Below are positions 37,114 to 51,991 of a DNA stretch of 64,000 nt, piece after piece. The stretch's first letter is position 1. Each line of letters opens with the position of its first letter. The notes beneath the pieces were generated by a model. The model was not told the origin of the DNA. It did no database searches and saw nothing but the letters and a program-made list of their open reading frames with translations. The stretch is from an uncultured Isosphaeraceae bacterium (lineage in GTDB: Bacteria > Planctomycetota > Planctomycetia > Isosphaerales > Isosphaeraceae), in assembly GCA_945957605.1 (NCBI GenBank), contig CAMFLR010000005.1:372001-436000 (forward strand), written 5' to 3'. The position numbers were made by a program, and so were the translations under genes.

Positions 37114-40100
37114 TTATCGCGACTCGAACCCCGGAATCATCGCGTTGGCCATCTTGTCGGGACGGCGAATCGATTGCTCCTTCATCCACGTTTCGCTTTG
37201 TTTGATCAACGAACGCCCCTCGCCGCCCCCAATCAATCGTCCAAGCTGTCGACGTGCCGAAGCGGCGAACAGATCAAGTGCAACATGATCGCAGCGCGTG
37301 ATGAGATCGTGTAGGAGATTCACGCTGAGATCGCGCTGACCGCGCTGATGCGCGAGCGCCGCACGAACCATGACAGCGAGAGCTCGCGACCAATCAAGCC
37401 GCTCGCGGTCGAGCCGCTTTGCATATCCCTCGGCCGCCTTCCAAAGCATTTGGCGATCGCTGGGAGATTTTGCAGCGAGAGCAAGCGCGGCCCGGGCACT
37501 TTGCTGCAGAAAATAGATCTTCACAAGTTGAATGTTGGGAAGCTGCGATTCCTCGAACTTCGGCCAAGTTTCGGTGACGCGTTTCCACGCGGCCTCGGCA
37601 TTGTCGTCGTACAACTCGAGGTCCATCGCACCGTAAAAGCAGGTCAGGTGCTGGACGTGAAATCCCGATTGTGACCAACGCCCAATCGCCTCTTCCATCT
37701 GTCGCCGGCCTTCATCCGGCTCGTCGGCAGCAAGTCGCGCGAGCACGGCGGGGTAAACCGTGACGGTCGATTCGAGATAGCGATCACCGCGGTCGCGGGC
37801 TTCTTTGGCAATGCGCGGACATCGCTTTTGCAACTCGCCGAGATGTCCTGAGTATGTGAGCGCCCAGAGTGCAAAGAGTTGAGCGGTATCCATCTCCCAG
37901 ATCACGCCGGTGCAACGGTCGCGGAGGATTTCCACCGCGCGATCGCTGACATCAACTGCCGAGAGAAATCGCCCCAGGAGGAATTCAGACGCGCCGCGAG
38001 CCATGGTCGTCATGCCGATGGCGTGCGGGTCATCGAGCCGTTGCGCCAGAGTGTCGGCGGCGTTGATCAGCCGCTCGGTTCGTTTCTTGGCTCGGCGTCC
38101 TTCGCAGGCAGACGGCACGGCTTCCCATGCGAGTGAAAGACAGACGCGCTGGGGCTCGCCGGCCGCGAGTGCTAACAGCAAGCTGCGGCTCGTAAAGCTC
38201 GATCCGCGAATCCAGTCGACGACGGTCAGGCCGACTGCGATTGACCGTGCGATATCGACGCGTGCCAGCTCTTGCGGCGGAATCTCTTGCCACTTCCGCT
38301 CGCGATACTTCAGCCCGCGCAGCTTGAGGATGAAGCGATTGCGCAGCAATGTTGTGAGAGCGTCTTTGGGCGTGCTCGGCAGCTTCAGCCCCATGGTTTG
38401 GAGCACGTCGCGAAGGATGTTCAGCCCTTCGTCAATGTGCCCCGTGGCAAGGTATTGATAACCCGCGAGCTGGTGCAGTCGCCGCACTTCGTCAAGTTCG
38501 GCCCCTTGCGCCGCCGCGAGGTAACTCCCGGCCGATTCGAGCCCCTTGCCTGCATTCGCAAGTGCATCCGCGAGTCTGATTTTCAGCGCACGGGACTCGC
38601 TCGGCGTGCCCGGATTCAGCTTGAGTGCCAGCTCGTACAACTTGGCCGCACGTTCAAAAGCGAGCGACTCGGCCCCCTGCGCTGCGGCGAGTGCATAGAA
38701 CTTGCCCGCCTTCTGACTTTCGCCGCCCCCTTCAAAGTGAAGCGCCAGCGTTTCAGGATCAGCTCCGCCTGCATCTTCGAGCTCGCGTCCAAGCCCCAAG
38801 TTGCGCTCGCGCAACGAGGCATCGGGCATGTGGCGGATCACGGTTTCACGAATGCGGTCGTGATAAACCTCCACGTCGTCGAGCAACGTTGCACCGGTGC
38901 TGCGGACGAGGTGTTCCTTGCGCAACAGGCTCAGTGCTTCGAACCCTTCGGGACCAAGCTCGACCGAACTACACGCGAGCGACTGCCGAATCGGCCGGCC
39001 GGCGACTGCAAGCGTCTCGAGCAAAATCTTGGCGGCGCGCGGCAGTTTTGAAATTCGGTTCCAGAGAACTTCGTCGAGTGTAAGGCTTTCGAGTGAGCTA
39101 AATCCATCCTGGCTCTTGGCACCAAGCTGTCGCAAATGCTGCACGAGCTCGATGACGAAAAACGGAATCCCGCCTGCTTCTTTGATCACCAGCTCGGTGA
39201 GAAACCCCATCGAAACGTCGGAATCGGAAATGAGCGAATTCACTAGCGCGCGAGATTCGGCGGGCGTGAACGCATCGACGCTGATATCGCGGCGATTCAC
39301 ATCGACCGGCTGCCGCGGATCGGTCTCTAGCAGCCGTTTCAGGCACGGGCTTACCGTCGCGTACTCGCTTCGATACGAGCACATCAGCAGCAAAACGGGC
39401 GGATCGGGCGGGCGCAGTAGGTCGGCCAGAAGCGCGGCGCTATCGAGATCGCCCCATTGGAGATCATCGATGTAAAGCACGAGCGGACGGCGGTCGCCGA
39501 TGCGTGCGAGCAACTCACGCAGCGCTCCGAATGCTCGGCGGCGCAATTCCTGCTGGTCGGGAATCTCCACCCCGCGTAATGGCGCTTCGGCAACGGCGTC
39601 GACGCGTCGAAGCACAGGAAAAACACGGGCGAGTGCGTGGACGTCGCGCGGTAATAACGCTTCGACTTCGGGACGTTTCAGGCGGCGAAGGTAACGGCTG
39701 AGGGAATCGATCAACGTGTCGAGCGCTTTGTACGCGACGGACTCCTGCTCGTAACATCGCCCGGCGAGCACCACGACTTCGCCTTCCTGGAGCAGGTCCT
39801 CCAGGAATCGTTGTGAGAGCGCGCTTTTGCCCGCTCCTGAGCGTCCGTGCACAAACGCCTTGACGGTGTTTCCCTTACGGGACATTGCGAACGCTTCCGC
39901 GAGCGCAACGAGCTGAGTTTCGCGGCCGACGAAGAGCCGGTGTGCCGGGTTCTGCGAGTCATTAGCATTCGCCAGCCCAACCACCTTCGAACCCAGCCGT
40001 TTGAGCACCTCGGCGCCGGTGGGACGCTCGGCGGGGTTGCGTGCCATCAGGTCGACGCAGAGGTCGTTGAGATCTTGAGGAACACCGTCTGCGAGCACGT

Positions 40101-41079
40101 TGGGAGGGACTGCATCTTCGTGCTGTTTGTTGATCAGCACTTCGAGCTGCGAGCCCGAATAGGGCAACTGGCCGGTCAATGCGCGATAGAGCATCACGCC
40201 CACCGAGTACCAGTCGCTCGCCTTCGTCAGTGAGCGCCCGGCCGCCTGCTCGGGGGCCATGTAGCCGGCCGTTCCAACGATGCCGCCGCCTTCCGTCGTG
40301 CCCGAATCGGCCTGGCGTACGACTTCCGTTGATAGGCCGAAGTCGAGCACGACAACGCGCCCTCGTCGCGCGACCATGACGTTTGACGGTTTAAGATCGC
40401 GGTGAAGCTTGTTGTTCGCGTGAAGATGATCGATCGCCTCGGCAAGTTGCCGCAGGGTACGTCGGAGTCTCGTTTCGTGGGCGGGGCAGACGCGGAGTGA
40501 GGGATCGCTCGGCCGCGCCGGCGACATCACGATCGTGTCTTCCTTGGGGCGAAGCGAGTCGGTGGCCTGAATATGGTCGTCGGTCGATGAGTCGAGACCC
40601 GTTCCCGAATGGACACGCGTCCTTTCGGTTGGGTCGGGCTGATCGGCGACTGTTACCAGGTTGCCGCGCTCCGCGGCCACAACCTCGACACCAACTGTTT
40701 CACCCAGGTCTTCGCGAAGCGTCGACGGTGACGATGCGCTCGAAACCTCTAGGTCGGGCACATCGCCGTCAGGACAGACGTGACGCAGCCAGTCCTCGCC
40801 GTCGACCAGCTCCATCGTAAAAAAACATTCGTCGTCGTTTGAAAATAACTCGTTAAGGCGAACAAGGTTGGGATGAGCGATGTTGCTCATCGTCCGGAAT
40901 TCGTTCTTGAATCGATAAAGTGAAGATGCGTCGCGATTCTTGATCGTCTTCAGCGCGACCGACTTCCCCAACTCGCGGTCGAAGACTTCGTAGACAAAGC
41001 CCATCCCGCCCGAGCCGACGCGCCTGCGCACCTCGAACCGCTCGTTTCCAGAGAATTCACCAAGGTGAGTTTTGCTCAT
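37114..41079 (-). CDS. Serine/threonine protein kinase fused to an AAA/STAND-like ATPase and helical repeats
   Basis: 1321 aa. Kinase domain with Gly-loop GSGGMG (22-27), Lys44, catalytic HRDLKPSN (226-233), DFG (246-248) and APE (275-277). About 100 residues (roughly 101-200), rich in Asp, Ser and Thr, are inserted between the hinge and the catalytic loop region. Next comes an AAA/STAND-type ATPase with Walker A GRSGAGKS (412-419) and Walker B VLYIDDLQWGDLDS, then a long helical C-terminal half with TPR-like alternation (LALAAGEPQRVCLSLAWEAV). There is no membrane segment. It faces the FtsK-like operon across a divergent gap and may regulate it. Confidence 0.93.
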   Translation of the reverse strand: MSKTHLGEFSGNERFEVRRRVGSGGMGFVYEVFDRELGKSVALKTIKNRDASSLYRFKNEFRTMSNIAHPNLVRLNELFSNDDECFFTMELVDGEDWLRHVCPDGDVPDLEVSSASSPSTLREDLGETVGVEVVAAERGNLVTVADQPDPTERTRVHSGTGLDSSTDDHIQATDSLRPKEDTIVMSPARPSDPSLRVCPAHETRLRRTLRQLAEAIDHLHANNKLHRDLKPSNVMVARRGRVVVLDFGLSTEVVRQADSGTTEGGGIVGTAGYMAPEQAAGRSLTKASDWYSVGVMLYRALTGQLPYSGSQLEVLINKQHEDAVPPNVLADGVPQDLNDLCVDLMARNPAERPTGAEVLKRLGSKVVGLANANDSQNPAHRLFVGRETQLVALAEAFAMSRKGNTVKAFVHGRSGAGKSALSQRFLEDLLQEGEVVVLAGRCYEQESVAYKALDTLIDSLSRYLRRLKRPEVEALLPRDVHALARVFPVLRRVDAVAEAPLRGVEIPDQQELRRRAFGALRELLARIGDRRPLVLYIDDLQWGDLDSAALLADLLRPPDPPVLLLMCSYRSEYATVSPCLKRLLETDPRQPVDVNRRDISVDAFTPAESRALVNSLISDSDVSMGFLTELVIKEAGGIPFFVIELVQHLRQLGAKSQDGFSSLESLTLDEVLWNRISKLPRAAKILLETLAVAGRPIRQSLACSSVELGPEGFEALSLLRKEHLVRSTGATLLDDVEVYHDRIRETVIRHMPDASLRERNLGLGRELEDAGGADPETLALHFEGGGESQKAGKFYALAAAQGAESLAFERAAKLYELALKLNPGTPSESRALKIRLADALANAGKGLESAGSYLAAAQGAELDEVRRLHQLAGYQYLATGHIDEGLNILRDVLQTMGLKLPSTPKDALTTLLRNRFILKLRGLKYRERKWQEIPPQELARVDIARSIAVGLTVVDWIRGSSFTSRSLLLALAAGEPQRVCLSLAWEAVPSACEGRRAKKRTERLINAADTLAQRLDDPHAIGMTTMARGASEFLLGRFLSAVDVSDRAVEILRDRCTGVIWEMDTAQLFALWALTYSGHLGELQKRCPRIAKEARDRGDRYLESTVTVYPAVLARLAADEPDEGRRQMEEAIGRWSQSGFHVQHLTCFYGAMDLELYDDNAEAAWKRVTETWPKFEESQLPNIQLVKIYFLQQSARAALALAAKSPSDRQMLWKAAEGYAKRLDRERLDWSRALAVMVRAALAHQRGQRDLSVNLLHDLITRCDHVALDLFAASARRQLGRLIGGGEGRSLIKQSETWMKEQSIRRPDKMANAMIPGFESR

Positions 41080-41718: not shown

Positions 41719-42357
41719 ATGAGCGACCAGGCCGATGTCCGTTCGCTGGAACAACTTAAGAATCTTCGTGTCGCGTTTGCTCTCTTCTCCGAAGACGCGC
41801 TCGCTGGCCTTGGAGCGATCGACGCCGAGATCAAACGCACGCTGCAGTGGCTGCGGCACGACCGCCGCGAATACTGGAGCCAGCAAATGAAGCTGAGGCG
41901 CGAAGCGCTCGCTTCCGCCCAGGCTGAGTTATTCCGCCGCAAGCTGGCCAAAACGCCCGAATACTCTCCCGCCATGAGCGAGCAAAAAGAAGCGTTCCGC
42001 GTCGCCGAGGCGAGGCTGCGCGAGGCCGAAGCGAAAGTGATCGTCGTCAAGAAGTGGGAGCCGGCGCTCCAGCAAATGGCGCTCGAATACCGGGCGACCA
42101 TCCGGCGTATCAAGGCGATCGCGTCGGGCGACGCTCCTCGCGCGATGGCACTTCTACAGCGATTGATCGACACGCTCGAAGCCTATCTGGCGATACCCGT
42201 GCCGACGCGTCCTGCTGGAGGCGCGGGGTTCGAACCTGTCGCCGATGCGTTTTTCCAGGAAGAAGCGGAGACGCCGACGGTTCAGGAAGCGGAATCGGCA
42301 GAAAACGACGACCCGGTTGAGAAATCCGAGGAATCGCGCGGGGAGGGTGTCGACTGA
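41719..42357 (+). CDS. Coiled-coil protein of the FtsK-like operon
   Basis: 212 aa from the ATG at 41719. Nearly all helical: LKNLRVAFALFSEDALAGLG, IDAEIKRTLQWLRHDRREYW, a long Lys/Glu/Ala heptad stretch (about 60-110) and a helical hairpin up to about 165. An acidic tail (FFQEEAETPTVQEAESAENDD) ends the protein. No catalytic motif, signal or membrane segment. Its TGA overlaps the next ATG by one base (TGATG). No family name recognised; role as scaffold or adaptor is inferred from context. Confidence 0.8.
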   Translation: MSDQADVRSLEQLKNLRVAFALFSEDALAGLGAIDAEIKRTLQWLRHDRREYWSQQMKLRREALASAQAELFRRKLAKTPEYSPAMSEQKEAFRVAEARLREAEAKVIVVKKWEPALQQMALEYRATIRRIKAIASGDAPRAMALLQRLIDTLEAYLAIPVPTRPAGGAGFEPVADAFFQEEAETPTVQEAESAENDDPVEKSEESRGEGVD

Positions 42358-42596
42358 TGGCGAACGCGAACGTTGTGGCTGGACAGAGTCGCCTGAAGCA
42401 CGCCACGCTCGCCCTGCGTGACCAGTGGTGGGCTACCGAACCGTACTGGAACGACGTGGTGCGCCGGCGGTTTGAAGAGCGGTACATCGCGCCGATTGAA
42501 CCGGCAGTTGAGGCCGCGGTGGTGGGAATTCAGAAGCTGGCCGAGATACTCGACCGAATTCGCCGTGATTGTTCCGATCGGAGCGAGATGCCGTGA
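42357..42596 (+). CDS. Small helical protein of the FtsK-like operon
   Basis: 79 aa, predicted as two helices: RLKHATLALRDQWWATEPYW and FEERYIAPIEPAVEAAVVGI with LAEILDRIRRDC following. The size and helical hairpin recall WXG100/Esx substrates of type VII secretion, but the WXG motif is not present and only a Trp-rich QWWATEPYW is seen. It is coupled to both neighbours by overlaps (TGATG upstream, GTGA downstream). No family recognised. Confidence 0.7.
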   Translation: MANANVVAGQSRLKHATLALRDQWWATEPYWNDVVRRRFEERYIAPIEPAVEAAVVGIQKLAEILDRIRRDCSDRSEMP

Positions 42597-45500
42597 GCAC
42601 CGCCGAGGAAACGACTTCCGCAACAAACTCCGCGACGCCCGCGGCGCAACCCAGCCCGGACCTGCTCGAACGCACGCGCCAAACCTTGCGCGAGCTGACC
42701 AGGCTTGTCGCCGAACGCGCAGAGAGCGAACGGCTCGTCGAGCACACGAAGATTGCAGCCTCGGGAGCGGCCGACTACGAGTTGCAACGCGCCCGCAATG
42801 AACTGACCGAGCGATCGCGCGCCGCGGAGGATTCTCTGCGTCAAACGGATGAAATCCGGCGTCGATCAATCATCGACCGCGCTCTCGAAGGCGAGGCCGA
42901 CGCCAAGTCCAACTTCGCCCGCGAAAGCCGACGCATCGCCGCCGACTTCGATGCGAACAAGAGCCGCGCAGCCGGCAATCACACGCGCGAAAAGAACAAT
43001 GCAACGGCCGCGTTTGAAAGCGCCGAGAAAAACGCGCTCTCGCAGTACACGAAGACAAAACGGCCGTTCGACGATGCCTCAAAGCTGATCGACGCCTACC
43101 ATACGCGGCTCGACACTCTCTTCGACGCCTACGCCAAGCTCGGCTATTCCGACACGCTCCCCAAGCCGCTCCGCGAAACCTACAACTTCGACAACCCCCT
43201 CGACGAGCTTTCCGACCGGCTGACAAAAATCGAAAAGCCGCTCCGCTTCGTGGAAGGCTTGGCGATTCCCAAGATCGTCACCGGCGGCAAGGTGACGATT
43301 CTGTTCATCGCCGCGTTTCTGATCGTTATTGGCCCCTGCCTCGCGCTGCTCGACACCCTCACCGCAATCATCGCGGCATTTGTGGGAGCGATCGTAGTTG
43401 GGTTCGGCTTGCGGATCTGGCTCAAGGGAGTCGCGCTCAAACAATTGCGGGCCTACGGTATACCTGTGACGCAAGCGTTCGTCGACGCCCACGCCCTCGC
43501 CGTTCATTGCTACGCGCAGCTCGACGAGAAGCTCAAGAACGACCGCGCCAGGCTGACCCAAATCAGAGACGAGGCGCACTTGCTGGCGCGAACCAATCAT
43601 GGTCGCGCCATTCAGGCGGCCGAACAGGCTCGCGACGACCAGCTTCGGCAGATCAATAACGTCTACGCCAATCGGGTCACCGAGATTCAGACAGAGCAAC
43701 AAGTCGCGCTTCGCGAGGCGATTGAAACCAACGAACGCAAGAAAGCCGAACTTGCCGAACGCACGGCCGCTGCCAGGCAAAAGGTCGATGAAAAATACAC
43801 CTCAGCCACGGCAACCGTGAAGGCACGCCACGAGGAATCGTGGAAAACGATGGCAACGCGCTGGCGCGATGGGATGTCGCGCGTGAACACCGATTTGAAT
43901 GCGATTCGACAGGAAGTTGACGCTACCTCGATTGCCTGGACCGACCTTGGAGCATCCGAGCAAGCGAGTCCGAAGGCCGTTCCGCAAGCGCTTCGCGTGG
44001 GCGAGATTCGCGTAAACGTCGCCGATCTTCCCGGCGGTGTGTCTGCCGATTCTCGGTTGCGCGAGGGAGTTGAAAGCATTTATATCTTCCCAATCGTTCG
44101 GAGCATGGGCGATCGGCCCAACTTGGTCGTCGAATTCGACGCGAGCGGACGAACCACAGCGATTGCAGCCGTGCAGGCAGCGATGCTTCGCTTGCTAACG
44201 AGCTTGCCCGCAGGCGCGATTCGATTCACGCTCGTCGATCCGATCGGCGCCGGCCGAAACTTTGGCGCGTTCATGCATCTGGCCGATTTCGACGAGACCT
44301 TGATTGGCGGCCAGGTCTGGACCGAGCCACGGCAGATCGAAGAAAAGCTCGGCGAACTGGCTGGCCACATGGAGCGGGTGAATCAGAAATATCTCAGAAA
44401 TGAGTATGCGACGATTCAAGAATACAACGCCGCGGCGGGTGAAGTTGCAGAGCCTTATCGAGTTGCCGTCGTCGCTGATTATCCCCAGGGCTTCGACGAA
44501 AAATCGGCCGGCCGGCTTTGTGCCATGGCAGCGCGTGGCACTCCCTGCGGTGTGTTGACGCTCGTTGCCCTCGATCGCGACCGTCCGCTGCCGCACGACG
44601 CCAGCCATGAAGAATTGTGTGCCAACGCACTCGTGCTTTCCTGGAATGGCAACCAACTCACCTGGAACGACCCCGATTTCGGTAAGTTCCCGCTCTTGCT
44701 CGACTCAATGCCGGCCGCTGAACTTTCGACTCGACTCGTCCAGCGCAGCGCGAAAGAAGCGCGCGATGCCAAGCGTGTTGAGGTGCCATTCGAGTTCATC
44801 GCACCCTCGCGCGACGCTTGGTGGACCTTCGATAGCCGCGCCGGAATTGATCTACCGCTGGGCAAGGCCGGCGCCAACAAGCGGCAAAACCTTAGCCTCG
44901 GCAAAGGGACATCTCAGCACGTGCTGGTGGCCGGCCGCACCGGTTCAGGTAAGTCGACGCTCTTGCATGCGTTGATCACGAATATCGCGGTTAGCTACAG
45001 CCCCGACCAGGTCGAGCTCTATCTCATCGACTTCAAAAAGGGCGTCGAGTTCAAGGTCTACGTCACACAAAACCTGCCGCACGCGAGCGTGATCGCCATC
45101 GAGAGTGAGCGCGAGTTCGGCATCAGCGTGCTTCAGCGCCTCGATAACGAACTCAAAATGCGTGCCGATCGATTCCGCGATGTCGGCGTGCAAGACCTGA
45201 ATGGTTACCGCGCCCTGGCCAATCAGCCTCCCCTGCCCCGCATTTTGCTGGTCGTTGACGAGTTCCAGGAATTCTTCGTCGAGGAAGACAAGCTCGCGCA
45301 GGAAGCGGCGTTGCTCTTGGATCGTCTTGTACGCCAAGGCCGCGCGTTCGGCGTGCATGTAATCCTTGGTTCACAAACGCTGGGTGGTGCGTTCACCTTG
45401 GCGCGGACAACAGTCGGCCAGATGGGCGTGCGCATCGCGCTTCAGTGCAGCGAGGCCGATTCACACCTCATCCTCAGCGAGCAAAACACTGCGGCCCGGC

Positions 45501-46546
45501 TACTTTCGCGACCTGGCGAAGCGGTTTACAACGACGCCAATGGCATGACCGAAGGCAATCATTTCTTCCAGGTCGTTTGGCTGGGCGACGATCGTCGCGA
45601 AAGTTATCTGAAACAGATTCATGCGTTTGCGCAAGAACATCCTCCAGTGATCACGCGGACGCCGATCGTCTTCGAAGGCGATGCACCCGCGAACCTGAGC
45701 AGAAACACCCAGGTTGAAGCTCTTGTGAACGCGGCAAGTTGGGAATCAACTCCGCGTTCCGCCCGCGCCTGGGTTGGCGAGCCAATTGCGATCAAGGAGC
45801 CAACTTTTGCCCTCTTCCGACGGCAGGGTGGGAACCATTTGCTGATCGTCGGCCAAAACGACGAGGCCGCCCTCGGTGTAATCTCTGCGACGATCGTCAG
45901 CCTGGCGCTTCAGTTTCCAGTCGCGACGTCGGATGAAGCCCGCCAAGGGGCGAAGTTCTTCATCCTCGACGGCACGCCCGAAGACCATCCGCATACCGAC
46001 GCACTCGCGAAACTCGCGGCGCATTTGCCGCATCGCGCCGAAGTTGGCAACTGGCGAGATACCACGCGTATTCTTTCCTCGCTAGCCGCCGAGGTGACGC
46101 GACGCGGTCAACCCGACGCGCCCGACGGCCCCGAGGTCTTTCTTTTCATTTACGATCTCCCGCGATTCCGTGACCTGCGAAAGCCCGAAGACGAATTCAG
46201 CTTCTCGCGCCGCGAGGAAGAAACGCCGTTCGACCTTCTCCGCTCGATTCTCCGCGAAGGTCCGAGCGTAGGCGTGCACGTCATCGCCTGGTGCGACAAT
46301 TTGAATAATCTCAATCGCAGTTTTGATCACCAAGGTCTGCGTGAATTCGAGATGCGCGTGCTGTTCCAGATGAGTCAGAACGACTCGGGCCACCTTCTCG
46401 AATCGCCCGCCGCAAGCAAGCTGGGACCACACCGCGCCCTGTTCGCGAGCGAAGAACAGAATCGGCTCGAAAAGTTCCGGCCGTACAAGTATCCCGACGC
46501 GGCATGGCTTGAGAAATTGAAGGAACGGCTCGCCGCGCGTTCCTAA
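42593..46546 (+). CDS. FtsK/SpoIIIE-EssC-like membrane-anchored ATPase
   Basis: 1317 aa from a GTG at 42593 that overlaps the preceding stop. Order: coiled-coil region (1-215), two adjacent membrane helices (about 230-280; VTILFIAAFLIVIGPCLALL), a second coiled coil (about 300-460), a RecA-like domain without a usable P-loop (about 470-690), a complete FtsK-type domain with Walker A GRTGSGKST (about 781) and Walker B LLVVDEFQEF (about 886), and a third, degenerate RecA-like domain (from about 1060; LLIVGQNDEAAL). Two helices followed by three tandem ATPase domains recall EssC/EccC of type VII secretion. No gamma domain for DNA binding is seen. Substrate unknown. Confidence 0.9.
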   Translation: MSTAEETTSATNSATPAAQPSPDLLERTRQTLRELTRLVAERAESERLVEHTKIAASGAADYELQRARNELTERSRAAEDSLRQTDEIRRRSIIDRALEGEADAKSNFARESRRIAADFDANKSRAAGNHTREKNNATAAFESAEKNALSQYTKTKRPFDDASKLIDAYHTRLDTLFDAYAKLGYSDTLPKPLRETYNFDNPLDELSDRLTKIEKPLRFVEGLAIPKIVTGGKVTILFIAAFLIVIGPCLALLDTLTAIIAAFVGAIVVGFGLRIWLKGVALKQLRAYGIPVTQAFVDAHALAVHCYAQLDEKLKNDRARLTQIRDEAHLLARTNHGRAIQAAEQARDDQLRQINNVYANRVTEIQTEQQVALREAIETNERKKAELAERTAAARQKVDEKYTSATATVKARHEESWKTMATRWRDGMSRVNTDLNAIRQEVDATSIAWTDLGASEQASPKAVPQALRVGEIRVNVADLPGGVSADSRLREGVESIYIFPIVRSMGDRPNLVVEFDASGRTTAIAAVQAAMLRLLTSLPAGAIRFTLVDPIGAGRNFGAFMHLADFDETLIGGQVWTEPRQIEEKLGELAGHMERVNQKYLRNEYATIQEYNAAAGEVAEPYRVAVVADYPQGFDEKSAGRLCAMAARGTPCGVLTLVALDRDRPLPHDASHEELCANALVLSWNGNQLTWNDPDFGKFPLLLDSMPAAELSTRLVQRSAKEARDAKRVEVPFEFIAPSRDAWWTFDSRAGIDLPLGKAGANKRQNLSLGKGTSQHVLVAGRTGSGKSTLLHALITNIAVSYSPDQVELYLIDFKKGVEFKVYVTQNLPHASVIAIESEREFGISVLQRLDNELKMRADRFRDVGVQDLNGYRALANQPPLPRILLVVDEFQEFFVEEDKLAQEAALLLDRLVRQGRAFGVHVILGSQTLGGAFTLARTTVGQMGVRIALQCSEADSHLILSEQNTAARLLSRPGEAVYNDANGMTEGNHFFQVVWLGDDRRESYLKQIHAFAQEHPPVITRTPIVFEGDAPANLSRNTQVEALVNAASWESTPRSARAWVGEPIAIKEPTFALFRRQGGNHLLIVGQNDEAALGVISATIVSLALQFPVATSDEARQGAKFFILDGTPEDHPHTDALAKLAAHLPHRAEVGNWRDTTRILSSLAAEVTRRGQPDAPDGPEVFLFIYDLPRFRDLRKPEDEFSFSRREEETPFDLLRSILREGPSVGVHVIAWCDNLNNLNRSFDHQGLREFEMRVLFQMSQNDSGHLLESPAASKLGPHRALFASEEQNRLEKFRPYKYPDAAWLEKLKERLAARS

Positions 46547-49570: not shown

Positions 49571-51991
49571 ATGATGCAAGCGTTTCGCCTTTTCACGTTT
49601 GTGCCGATTCTTGCGGGCGTGATCGTTTTGTTCGCTGCCGAGAACCGGGCGCAGGCCGCCGAGCCCAAAATCGACCTGACGCACGCAAGTATCGTCACCC
49701 CCGCGCGACTCGATTACCGCGAAAAAAAAGCGGTGGCGATGCTGGTGGAAGAAATCCAGAAACGAACGAGCGTACGGTTGCTTGTTCGTTCCGACTGGCC
49801 CGCCGAACTCGGTAGCCCAGTCATTCTGGTCGGACGCAATGAGGTGATTCGCAAGGAATTTCCCCAGGCGTTCGAAGGGAAGATCGCGCTCAACGTTCCG
49901 CAAAAGCCGGAATCCTTCGCGATCGGCGCGTCGAGTCATCCGCCGCGCGTGGTGGTGAGCGGGAACGACACGCGCGGGCTGTTCTTCGGGATCGGTCGGT
50001 TGCTGCGCGAGTTGGCAATGACGCGCGGCAAAGTTGCGCTCGGCGGCGATTTTTCAATCGCGACTTCACCCGCCGTCGCGCTTCGCGGCCACCAACTCGG
50101 CTATCGGCCCAAAACGCATTCGTACGACGCGTGGGATTTGCCCCAGTGGGAGCAGTACTTTCGCGATCTCGTCGTCTTCGGCACTAATGCGATCGAACTC
50201 GTTCCTCCGCGTACTGATGACGACGTCGACAGTCCTCATTTCCCTCGTCCGCCGATGGAGATGATGGTCGCGATGTCGAGCCTCGCCGATGAGTACGACC
50301 TCGACGTTTGGGTCTGGTATCCAGCGATGGATAAGGATTACTCCAACCCAGCGACGGTCGAGTTTGCGATCAACGAGTGGGCGCAAGTGTTCCAAAAGCT
50401 TAAGCGCATCGATGCGATCTTCGTGCCCGGCGGTGACCCTGGCCACACGCAACCCAAGCACATGATGGCGTTGTTAGAAAAGCAGGCGAAATCGCTCGCG
50501 CGGTTTCATCCTCGCGCCCAGATGTGGATGTCGCCGCAGAGCTTCAATCGCGAGTGGCACGAAGAATTTCTTGACATCATGAAGCAGGAACCGAAATGGC
50601 TCACAGGTATTGTGTTCGGACCGCAGGTACGCGTTGGCTTGCATGAATTGCGAGAGAGCATTCCCAAGAAATATCCGATTCGGCATTATCCTGACATTAC
50701 CCATTCGATCAATTGTCAATATCCTGTTCCGGAATGGGATCTTGCCTACGCGCTCACGTATGATCGTGAGGCGATCAATCCTCGGCCGCTCGGTCAGGCG
50801 GCGATCTTTGCGGCCGGCAAGGATGAGAGCGTCGGCTTCTTGACGTATTCCGAAGGCTGCAACGATGACGTGAATAAGTTCGTCTGGAGCGGCCTGGGTT
50901 GGGAACCGGCGACTCCTGTAGTCGACATTTTGCGGCAATACAGCCGCTATTTCGTGGGCGAGACGTATCGCGAGTCGCTGGCGCAAGGTCTGCTCGCACT
51001 CGAACGAAACTGGCGCGGACCGCTGCTGTCGAACGATACGGTCGAAACGACGCTGCTGCAATTCCAGCAAATGGAACGAGCCGCGATGCCGGCCGACTTG
51101 CTCAACTGGCGCTTTCAGCAGGCCCTGTATCGCGCCTATTACGACGCGAATGTTCGCGATCGCTTGATTCGCGAAACCGCGATCGAAACCGAAGCCAGAA
51201 AAGTATTGCGCAACGCAGAGAAGATCGGCGTGATTCCTGCGATCGACGAAGCCCAGACGATTTTGCGCAAGGCGCTTTTCGCACCCGCATCCGATCGTCG
51301 TGTGCGTGTCGATCAACTTGCCGAAGCGTTGTTCCAAAGCATTCAGATGCAGCTTAGCGTCAAACGCTATCGAGCGATCGAGGTCGGCCGCGGGACGACG
51401 CAGGATTCGATCGACACCCCGCTCAATGATCGCCTATGGCTTGAGTCGGAGTTCGCAAGTATCCGCGCGTTGCCGACAGAACGTGAACGTCTCGAACGGC
51501 TGACCAAACTCGAAAACCGCACCAATCCTGGTCCCGGCGGATTTTACGACAATCTTGGCAATTTTACGGGACGAAACCGAGTCGTGCCAGGGGCTGAATT
51601 CGGAGCTAGTCCCGATTTTCGTAAGTCGTGGGTCATCGGTTTTGATGACAATTCGACGACCTATCCGATGTCATGGCGCAGGTTTGCACTGGCGCTTTAT
51701 GAGCAGCCGTTGCGATTGCGTTATGAAGGGTTGGATAAAAGTGGAGCGTATCGAATTCACGTCGTTTACGGCGGTGAGAACCAGCGTGTGAATGTGCGGC
51801 TTACGGCCGAGGGGGCCGAGATCCATCCCTTTATGAAAAAGCCCCTTCCTGTTCGTCCTATCGAGTTTGATTTGCCGACGTCAGCGACGGCGGATGGTGT
51901 ACTTGAGTTGGAATTCCAGCAGGAGAGCGGTCGCGGCGGGAATGGGCGAGGCTGCCAGGTGTCTGAGGTGTTTCTGATCAAGGTGAAGTGA
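49571..51991 (+). CDS. Secreted glycosidase-like protein (GH20/GH67 zincin-like N-terminal domain)
   Basis: 806 aa. Signal peptide (1-29), then a domain with KKAVAMLVEEIQKRTSVRLLV and ESFAIGASSHPPRVVVSGND of the alpha-glucuronidase/hexosaminidase N-terminal type that precedes catalytic barrels. A (beta/alpha)8 region follows with LDVWVWYPAMDKDYSNP and FVPGGDPGHTQP, containing candidate acids, and a C-terminal beta-sandwich (RGGNGRGCQVSEVFLIKV). Specificity cannot be given. It is 47 nt after clpX and has its own AAGGA site. Confidence 0.75.
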   Translation: MMQAFRLFTFVPILAGVIVLFAAENRAQAAEPKIDLTHASIVTPARLDYREKKAVAMLVEEIQKRTSVRLLVRSDWPAELGSPVILVGRNEVIRKEFPQAFEGKIALNVPQKPESFAIGASSHPPRVVVSGNDTRGLFFGIGRLLRELAMTRGKVALGGDFSIATSPAVALRGHQLGYRPKTHSYDAWDLPQWEQYFRDLVVFGTNAIELVPPRTDDDVDSPHFPRPPMEMMVAMSSLADEYDLDVWVWYPAMDKDYSNPATVEFAINEWAQVFQKLKRIDAIFVPGGDPGHTQPKHMMALLEKQAKSLARFHPRAQMWMSPQSFNREWHEEFLDIMKQEPKWLTGIVFGPQVRVGLHELRESIPKKYPIRHYPDITHSINCQYPVPEWDLAYALTYDREAINPRPLGQAAIFAAGKDESVGFLTYSEGCNDDVNKFVWSGLGWEPATPVVDILRQYSRYFVGETYRESLAQGLLALERNWRGPLLSNDTVETTLLQFQQMERAAMPADLLNWRFQQALYRAYYDANVRDRLIRETAIETEARKVLRNAEKIGVIPAIDEAQTILRKALFAPASDRRVRVDQLAEALFQSIQMQLSVKRYRAIEVGRGTTQDSIDTPLNDRLWLESEFASIRALPTERERLERLTKLENRTNPGPGGFYDNLGNFTGRNRVVPGAEFGASPDFRKSWVIGFDDNSTTYPMSWRRFALALYEQPLRLRYEGLDKSGAYRIHVVYGGENQRVNVRLTAEGAEIHPFMKKPLPVRPIEFDLPTSATADGVLELEFQQESGRGGNGRGCQVSEVFLIKVK

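Follow-up and report, generated by a model that had tools for sequence, protein, structure and literature searches.

Operon organisation

Three genes were found on the forward strand of the window (the whole stretch of 64,000 nucleotides analysed, G000:C5:372001-436000, from the genome of an uncultured member of the planctomycete family Isosphaeraceae). The reading frames overlap as TGATG between genes 1 and 2 (42355-42359) and as GTGA between genes 2 and 3 (42593-42596), which confirms the coupling of three genes over 41719-46546 given in an initial annotation made from the sequence. That annotation had further described a coiled-coil protein, a 79-aa helical protein and a 1317-aa protein with two membrane helices and three RecA-like domains; AlphaFold models of the products of genes 1 and 2 are indeed hairpins, and the hydrophobic hairpin and domain profile comparisons of the gene 3 product agree with the description (Table 1). 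Genes 1 to 3 were present together in 15/15 examined loci of the paralogue group to which the window operon belongs, so the set is not a chance association.

Two neighbouring genes were also noted. A Ser/Thr kinase with an AAA_16 domain and a long C-terminal region is encoded on the reverse strand (37114-41079), divergent from the operon; it was rejected as an operon partner because it was not found beside the other copies. An 806-aa protein belonging to no Pfam family is encoded on the forward strand (49571-51991), and a homologue of it lies downstream of the ATPase gene in one other locus (L035).

Table 1. Features of the operon, in window positions
Feature	Position	Strand	Evidence
Gene 1 (P0001), 212 aa	41719..42357	+	ORF call
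Gene 2 (P0002), 79 aa	42357..42596	+	ORF call
Codons of the WxD motif (W31-N32-D33) in the bend of gene 2	42447..42455	+	Sequence, alignment A2, AlphaFold model
Gene 3 (P0003), 1317 aa, GTG start	42593..46546	+	ORF call
Predicted membrane hairpin, two adjacent hydrophobic segments, residues ~233-276	43289..43420	+	Hydropathy peaks, at the same place in 35 homologues
D1, degenerate RecA-like domain, residues 465-735	43985..44797	+	hhalign D1-D3 96%; no Walker A
D2, sole active RecA-like domain, residues 738-1015	44804..45637	+	Walker A/B; aligns with ATPase 1 of EccC
D3, degenerate RecA-like domain, residues 1050-1317	45740..46543	+	hhalign D3-D2 97%, E 7e-11

The ATPase

P0003 begins with a coiled coil, followed by the hydrophobic hairpin, a second coiled coil and the three RecA-like domains. 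Walker A (G781-S788) and Walker B (D889-E890) in D2 were invariant among 35 homologues; D1 and D3 possess neither motif. The protein matches PF01580 (E 6e-33), and the Pfam name of this family, FtsK_SpoIIIE, would suit an FtsK/SpoIIIE-type DNA translocase. Against such a role, D2 scored 112 bits with the EccCa profile (TIGR03924) and 98 bits with that of EssC (TIGR03928) compared to 37 bits with FtsK, the layout is one of three domains, a Pfam search of P0003 found no FtsK gamma DNA-binding domain, and the host genome carries a separate FtsK gene elsewhere. A DNA translocase was rejected on scores, layout and the missing gamma domain, and is regarded as highly improbable.

By sequence profile P0003 is closer to EccC/EssC than to FtsK, as the initial annotation had proposed from its EssC/EccC-like layout, and neither of the findings it had named as refuting this, a gamma-like domain or grouping with FtsK, was encountered. 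The best solved-structure matches were EccC (4nh0, E 3e-34; 7np7) and YukB. On the D2 scores and the predicted hairpin, P0003 can be described as a membrane ATPase of the EccC/EssC type with tandem FtsK domains; as both scores are far under the equivalog cut-offs (509 bits for EccCa, 778 bits for EssC), it is related to these proteins without being their orthologue.

A four-gene parental unit and its duplication

Gene neighbourhoods were surveyed in the window, in 52 other class-level loci and in 30 phylum-level loci. A unit of fixed order was found across the phylum, consisting of a WXG100 gene (90 aa), the coiled-coil gene (gene 1), the WxD gene (gene 2) and the ATPase gene; this order was present in 29 class-level and at least 21/30 phylum-level loci, both counts being lower bounds since genes were called with a simple script. 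Genes 1 to 3 are thus conserved together in Planctomycetota; the lack of such conservation, which the initial annotation had named as refuting its reading, was not found. No fifth conserved gene was detected beside the unit in the class- and phylum-level loci. Among the few departures from the order, one locus (L202, genome G299) has the WXG100 gene after the coiled-coil and WxD genes, with no ATPase called nearby. In four others (L181, L182, L183 and L188) the WXG100, coiled-coil and WxD genes, or the latter two, lie far from a lone ATPase gene, and the three genes can then make up an operon by themselves; the two halves of the unit can therefore separate.

All 23 members of the 90-aa family matched both PF06013 (best 1e-12; first member 31.2 bits against a cut-off of 27.3) and TIGR03930, and the best solved match to the family, sharing the WRD motif, was Helicobacter pylori HP0062. 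Of 392 genomes taken from across Planctomycetota, 60 (about 15%) have the gene, each in a single copy. In the genome that contains the window, the only clear WXG100 gene belongs to a four-gene operon on another contig (C4:360123-365207), referred to here as the parental operon; a second candidate (C5:97512) proved to be a MotA/ExbB protein. A WXG100 gene is thus encoded with the ATPase in the parental operon, and the window itself has only the WXG100-like gene 2.

The window-type copies are confined to Isosphaeraceae and form a single clade (SH-aLRT 100), which branches from within the four-gene copies, and none of the 15 loci examined has a WXG100 gene of its own. The window operon is an Isosphaeraceae-specific duplicate of the parental unit that comprises its last three genes only. 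Copies of this type were identified in 21/37 Isosphaeraceae genomes searched, counted as matches of at least 53% identity, and the environmental strain Singulisphaera acidiphila DSM 18658 carries both operons. The single WXG100 copy per genome and the gene order, kept without a shared mobile context, argue against a mobile character of the unit in Planctomycetota; its patchy presence (60/392 genomes) would be compatible with one.

The small helical proteins

The AlphaFold model of the gene 2 product (pLDDT 90.5) has helices at residues 2-26, 34-44 and 47-76, with the WxD motif at the bend of the hairpin; W31 and D33 were invariant in an alignment of 36 homologues. Its top structural matches (Foldseek, VIA-align) were WXG100 proteins, HP0062 first (Z 9.3) and EsxB also among them; HP0062 carries WRD, likewise a WxD form. 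Helical hairpins score easily, even by chance, and this ranking is for that reason support and not proof. Comparison of the gene 2 family with the 90-aa WXG100 family of the parental operon gave an hhalign value of 75% (E 2.5e-5). P0002 itself had no match to PF06013; weak matches were seen in 3/36 homologues for PF06013 (best 5e-4) and in 6/36 for PF25547 (best 2e-3). Gene 2 has the build of a WXG100 protein, a helical hairpin of the order of 100 aa with a tryptophan motif at the bend, the motif being WxD instead of WxG, and motif, model and profile together make a WXG100-like nature of the 79-aa protein very probable. The statement in the initial annotation that the WXG motif is lacking is literally correct for WxG and overlooks the invariant WxD variant; a system devoid of WXG proteins is not supported, given gene 2 and a WXG100 gene in the parental operon that scores above the Pfam threshold.

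The gene 1 product was modelled as an antiparallel helical hairpin (H10-76 and H87-158) with a disordered acidic tail, at a pLDDT of 86 overall and about 95 or more within the hairpin, and belongs to a conserved family of 36 sequences (A3). Its N-terminus (~45-60 residues) aligned with that of the WXG100 family (hhalign 58%, E 1e-4; reversed control 2%); over the whole length no link was seen (2.6%). In a profile search with gene 1, WXG100 proteins were ranked immediately below the gene 1 family itself and a single plasmid homologue. Common ancestry of gene 1 and the WXG100 family is possible on these sequence comparisons. Homology to EspG or LXG proteins was rejected, as Foldseek returned generic coiled coils only and Pfam nothing, and Pfam recognised no cargo or toxin domain in gene 1 of the window, which has only the disordered tail beyond its hairpin. 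In deep planctomycete lineages, gene 1 homologues were observed fused to a C-terminal Imm33-like domain (L196:9903-10949, L198:10224-11297 and L201:9619-10758), a fold that is elsewhere classed among immunity proteins.

Relatives on plasmids

Related gene sets were found on plasmids of other phyla. On a plasmid of Helicobacter sp. NHP19-012 (L228:6731-11133), a WXG-like gene (WxD) is followed in order by a coiled-coil protein with a fused WHH/colicin-DNase nuclease, a SUKH immunity gene, a 77-aa protein and the ATPase, a toxin-immunity cassette within an EssC-like ATPase operon. A Caballeronia plasmid has, in order, a WXG100 gene (WxD), a coiled-coil protein of 436 aa, small genes and the ATPase, adjoined by VWA, PP2C and kinase genes; Pfam gave no match for the C-terminal part of the coiled-coil protein. 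WXG-like genes adjoin the ATPase on Rhodococcus and Deinococcus plasmids. The gene 1 family profile matched the cargo-like middle protein of Rhodococcus clearly (E 8.5e-7) and its Caballeronia counterpart weakly (9e-4).

The location of plasmid relatives within TerD or VWA/PP2C/kinase/CARF clusters raises the alternative that the planctomycete operon encodes a membrane-tethered ATPase with coiled-coil partners acting inside the cell in a stress response or nucleic-acid defence, a role that has been proposed for TerY-P/CoCoNuT loci. Related ATPases without membrane helices have been placed in defence loci (PMC11090510), and D2 also matches SspH and mad8 of PADLOC. These PADLOC matches, however, cover only the generic D2 domain, the planctomycete ATPases possess the membrane hairpin, the WXG100 gene is single-copy in each genome, and no conserved Ter, VWA, CARF or nuclease neighbour was present in the Planctomycetota loci surveyed. 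Intracellular stress response or defence is accordingly considered unlikely, with a limited chance of being correct.

The slot of gene 1 in the Helicobacter operon is occupied by the coiled-coil/nuclease fusion, and by analogy gene 1 most likely encodes a cargo or a protein that targets cargo.

Search for type VII components

Planctomycetes are bacteria with two membranes, and the type VII export machine is known from Gram-positive bacteria. Known components of that machine were sought in 21 genomes. No match above the cut-off was obtained for EssB/YukC (PF10140), for which the Bacillus subtilis control was positive, or for EccB (PF05108), where the result is weaker because no control genome was positive. 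A YukD/EsaB-type protein (PF08817) was found in 10/21 genomes, unlinked to the ATPase, and was rejected as a component since the match sits in an operon for ubiquitin-like conjugation (E1, E2, JAB and RING-like proteins). In the genome of the window this operon (L174:8182-12898, on G000:C16) encodes a RING-like protein, the YukD ubiquitin-like protein, an E2 (UQ_con), an E1 (ThiF) and a JAB protease; matching operons are conserved in Isosphaeraceae and constitute a bacterial ubiquitin-like conjugation system. The C-terminal export signal YxxxD/E, expected on a WXG100 partner in canonical T7SSa, was present in the last 35 residues of 0/30 WXG100 proteins and 1/45 gene 2 proteins, and no family of cargo proteins was found.

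The lack of this signal and of a cargo family, the single WXG100 protein per genome and the similarity of gene 1 to generic antiparallel coiled coils would fit a structural membrane scaffold, in which coiled coils and hairpins form an ATPase-powered envelope complex that secretes nothing. Pairs of WXG100 proteins and EccC/EssC, on the other hand, are generally known to serve export in the Gram-positive systems studied (PMC11217815), and the Helicobacter relative holds a nuclease/immunity pair in the gene 1 slot. A scaffold is given a small chance.

Interpretation

The operon is real and conserved and represents a minimal type VII-like unit, for which a function as an exporter is likely. The explanation preferred, and held to be probable, is that the window operon encodes, as a duplicate, a minimal type VII-like exporter of the WXG100/EssC kind in a diderm bacterium, export being deduced from its components. 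The secretion or translocation machine suggested by the initial annotation is thus retained as the best reading, on the strength of the ATPase homology and the conserved gene set; secretion itself is the deduced part of it. Points against export are that EssB and EccB were not found in the genomes searched, that no outer-membrane component is known, that the export signal is absent from the WXG100 protein and nearly so from gene 2, that gene 1 of the window has no recognised cargo domain and is linked to cargo proteins elsewhere by one clear and one weak profile match, and that gene 2 by its sequence matches WXG100 weakly.

In the proposed mechanism, the membrane-anchored ATPase would assemble into a hexamer and hydrolyse ATP in its middle domain only, with the degenerate D1 and D3 possibly serving in regulation or in the binding of substrate, in the manner of EccC. 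The WxD hairpin of gene 2, possibly joined by the WXG100 protein that the parental operon encodes, would pair with the long hairpin of gene 1 and deliver it to the ATPase for crossing of the inner membrane.

A more far-reaching version is possible, if rather doubtful in its entirety: that the WXG100 protein, the WxD hairpin and the elongated hairpin all arose from one WXG100-type hairpin, and that they belong to a self-contained four-gene diderm exporter, inherited vertically in Planctomycetota and duplicated in Isosphaeraceae to give a second machine sharing the single WXG100 protein, the whole being a type VII subtype in its own right with a housekeeping role unrelated to toxins.

Most accounts assign type VII secretion to Gram-positive bacteria and mycobacteria, and a four-gene diderm version would show how little WXG100/EssC-type transport needs. 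About 15% of the Planctomycetota sampled carry the unit, as do most of the Isosphaeraceae, and such a minimal machine would be testable in a cultured species, S. acidiphila, which has both copies.

Comparison with known systems

Literature searches brought up no paper devoted to planctomycete WXG100 systems, and a census of type VII systems from 2024 includes Bacillota and Actinomycetota only (PMC11217815). The term 'undescribed' used in the initial annotation is nevertheless too strong, as a footnote of PMC3482391 names planctomycetes, and both PMC11090510 and PMC4978471 report loci of a related kind.

The footnote in question (Zhang et al. 2012, table footnote 6; PMC3482391) lists planctomycetes with other lineages that have solo WXG proteins and a distinct YueA-like ATPase, which the same authors describe as having three FtsK/HerA domains, the middle alone active, in 'mobile versions of T7SS'. 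The planctomycete unit resembles this class in combining a WXG100 protein with an EssC-like three-domain ATPase of which only the middle domain is active. It departs from the published description in its fixed four-gene order, second WXG100-like protein and long-hairpin protein, as well as in the single-copy WXG100 gene in Planctomycetota, the membrane hairpin of the ATPase and the window copy without a WXG100 gene.

The H. pylori proteins HP0062 and HP0066 have been termed a 'WXG100 secretion system' (PMC4978471, PMC3397514), and the resemblance lies in the WRD motif of HP0062 and its clustering with an FtsK/SpoIIIE ATPase. Compared to the Helicobacter plasmid relative, with its nuclease and SUKH immunity protein in the middle slot, planctomycetes have there a long hairpin free of toxin domains.

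The EssC-like ATPase loci associated with CoCoNuT/TerY-P include two WXG100-like proteins, one of them without the motif (PMC11090510). They share with the planctomycete unit three ATPase domains (the central alone active), an N-terminal coiled coil, two WXG100-like proteins and a coiled-coil protein (PMC11090510); their ATPases lack membrane helices and reside in defence/Ter clusters, whereas the planctomycete ATPase has the membrane hairpin and no such neighbours.

A membrane-bound FtsK-like ATPase with WXG100 partners is likewise found in T7SSa (EccC/EsxAB/EccB/EccD) and T7SSb (EssC/EsxA/EsaB/EssB). Unlike in these, EssB/EccB was undetected and YukD unlinked, coiled coils replace the FHA domains and WxD replaces WxG, and the ATPase has by profile comparison three NTPase domains instead of the four C-terminal ones by which T7SSa and T7SSb are recognised (PMC11217815). 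As far as the literature searched shows, what is new is the fixed four-gene unit of Planctomycetota with a WxD protein as second WXG100-like partner, the membrane hairpin of its ATPase and the duplicated three-gene copy.
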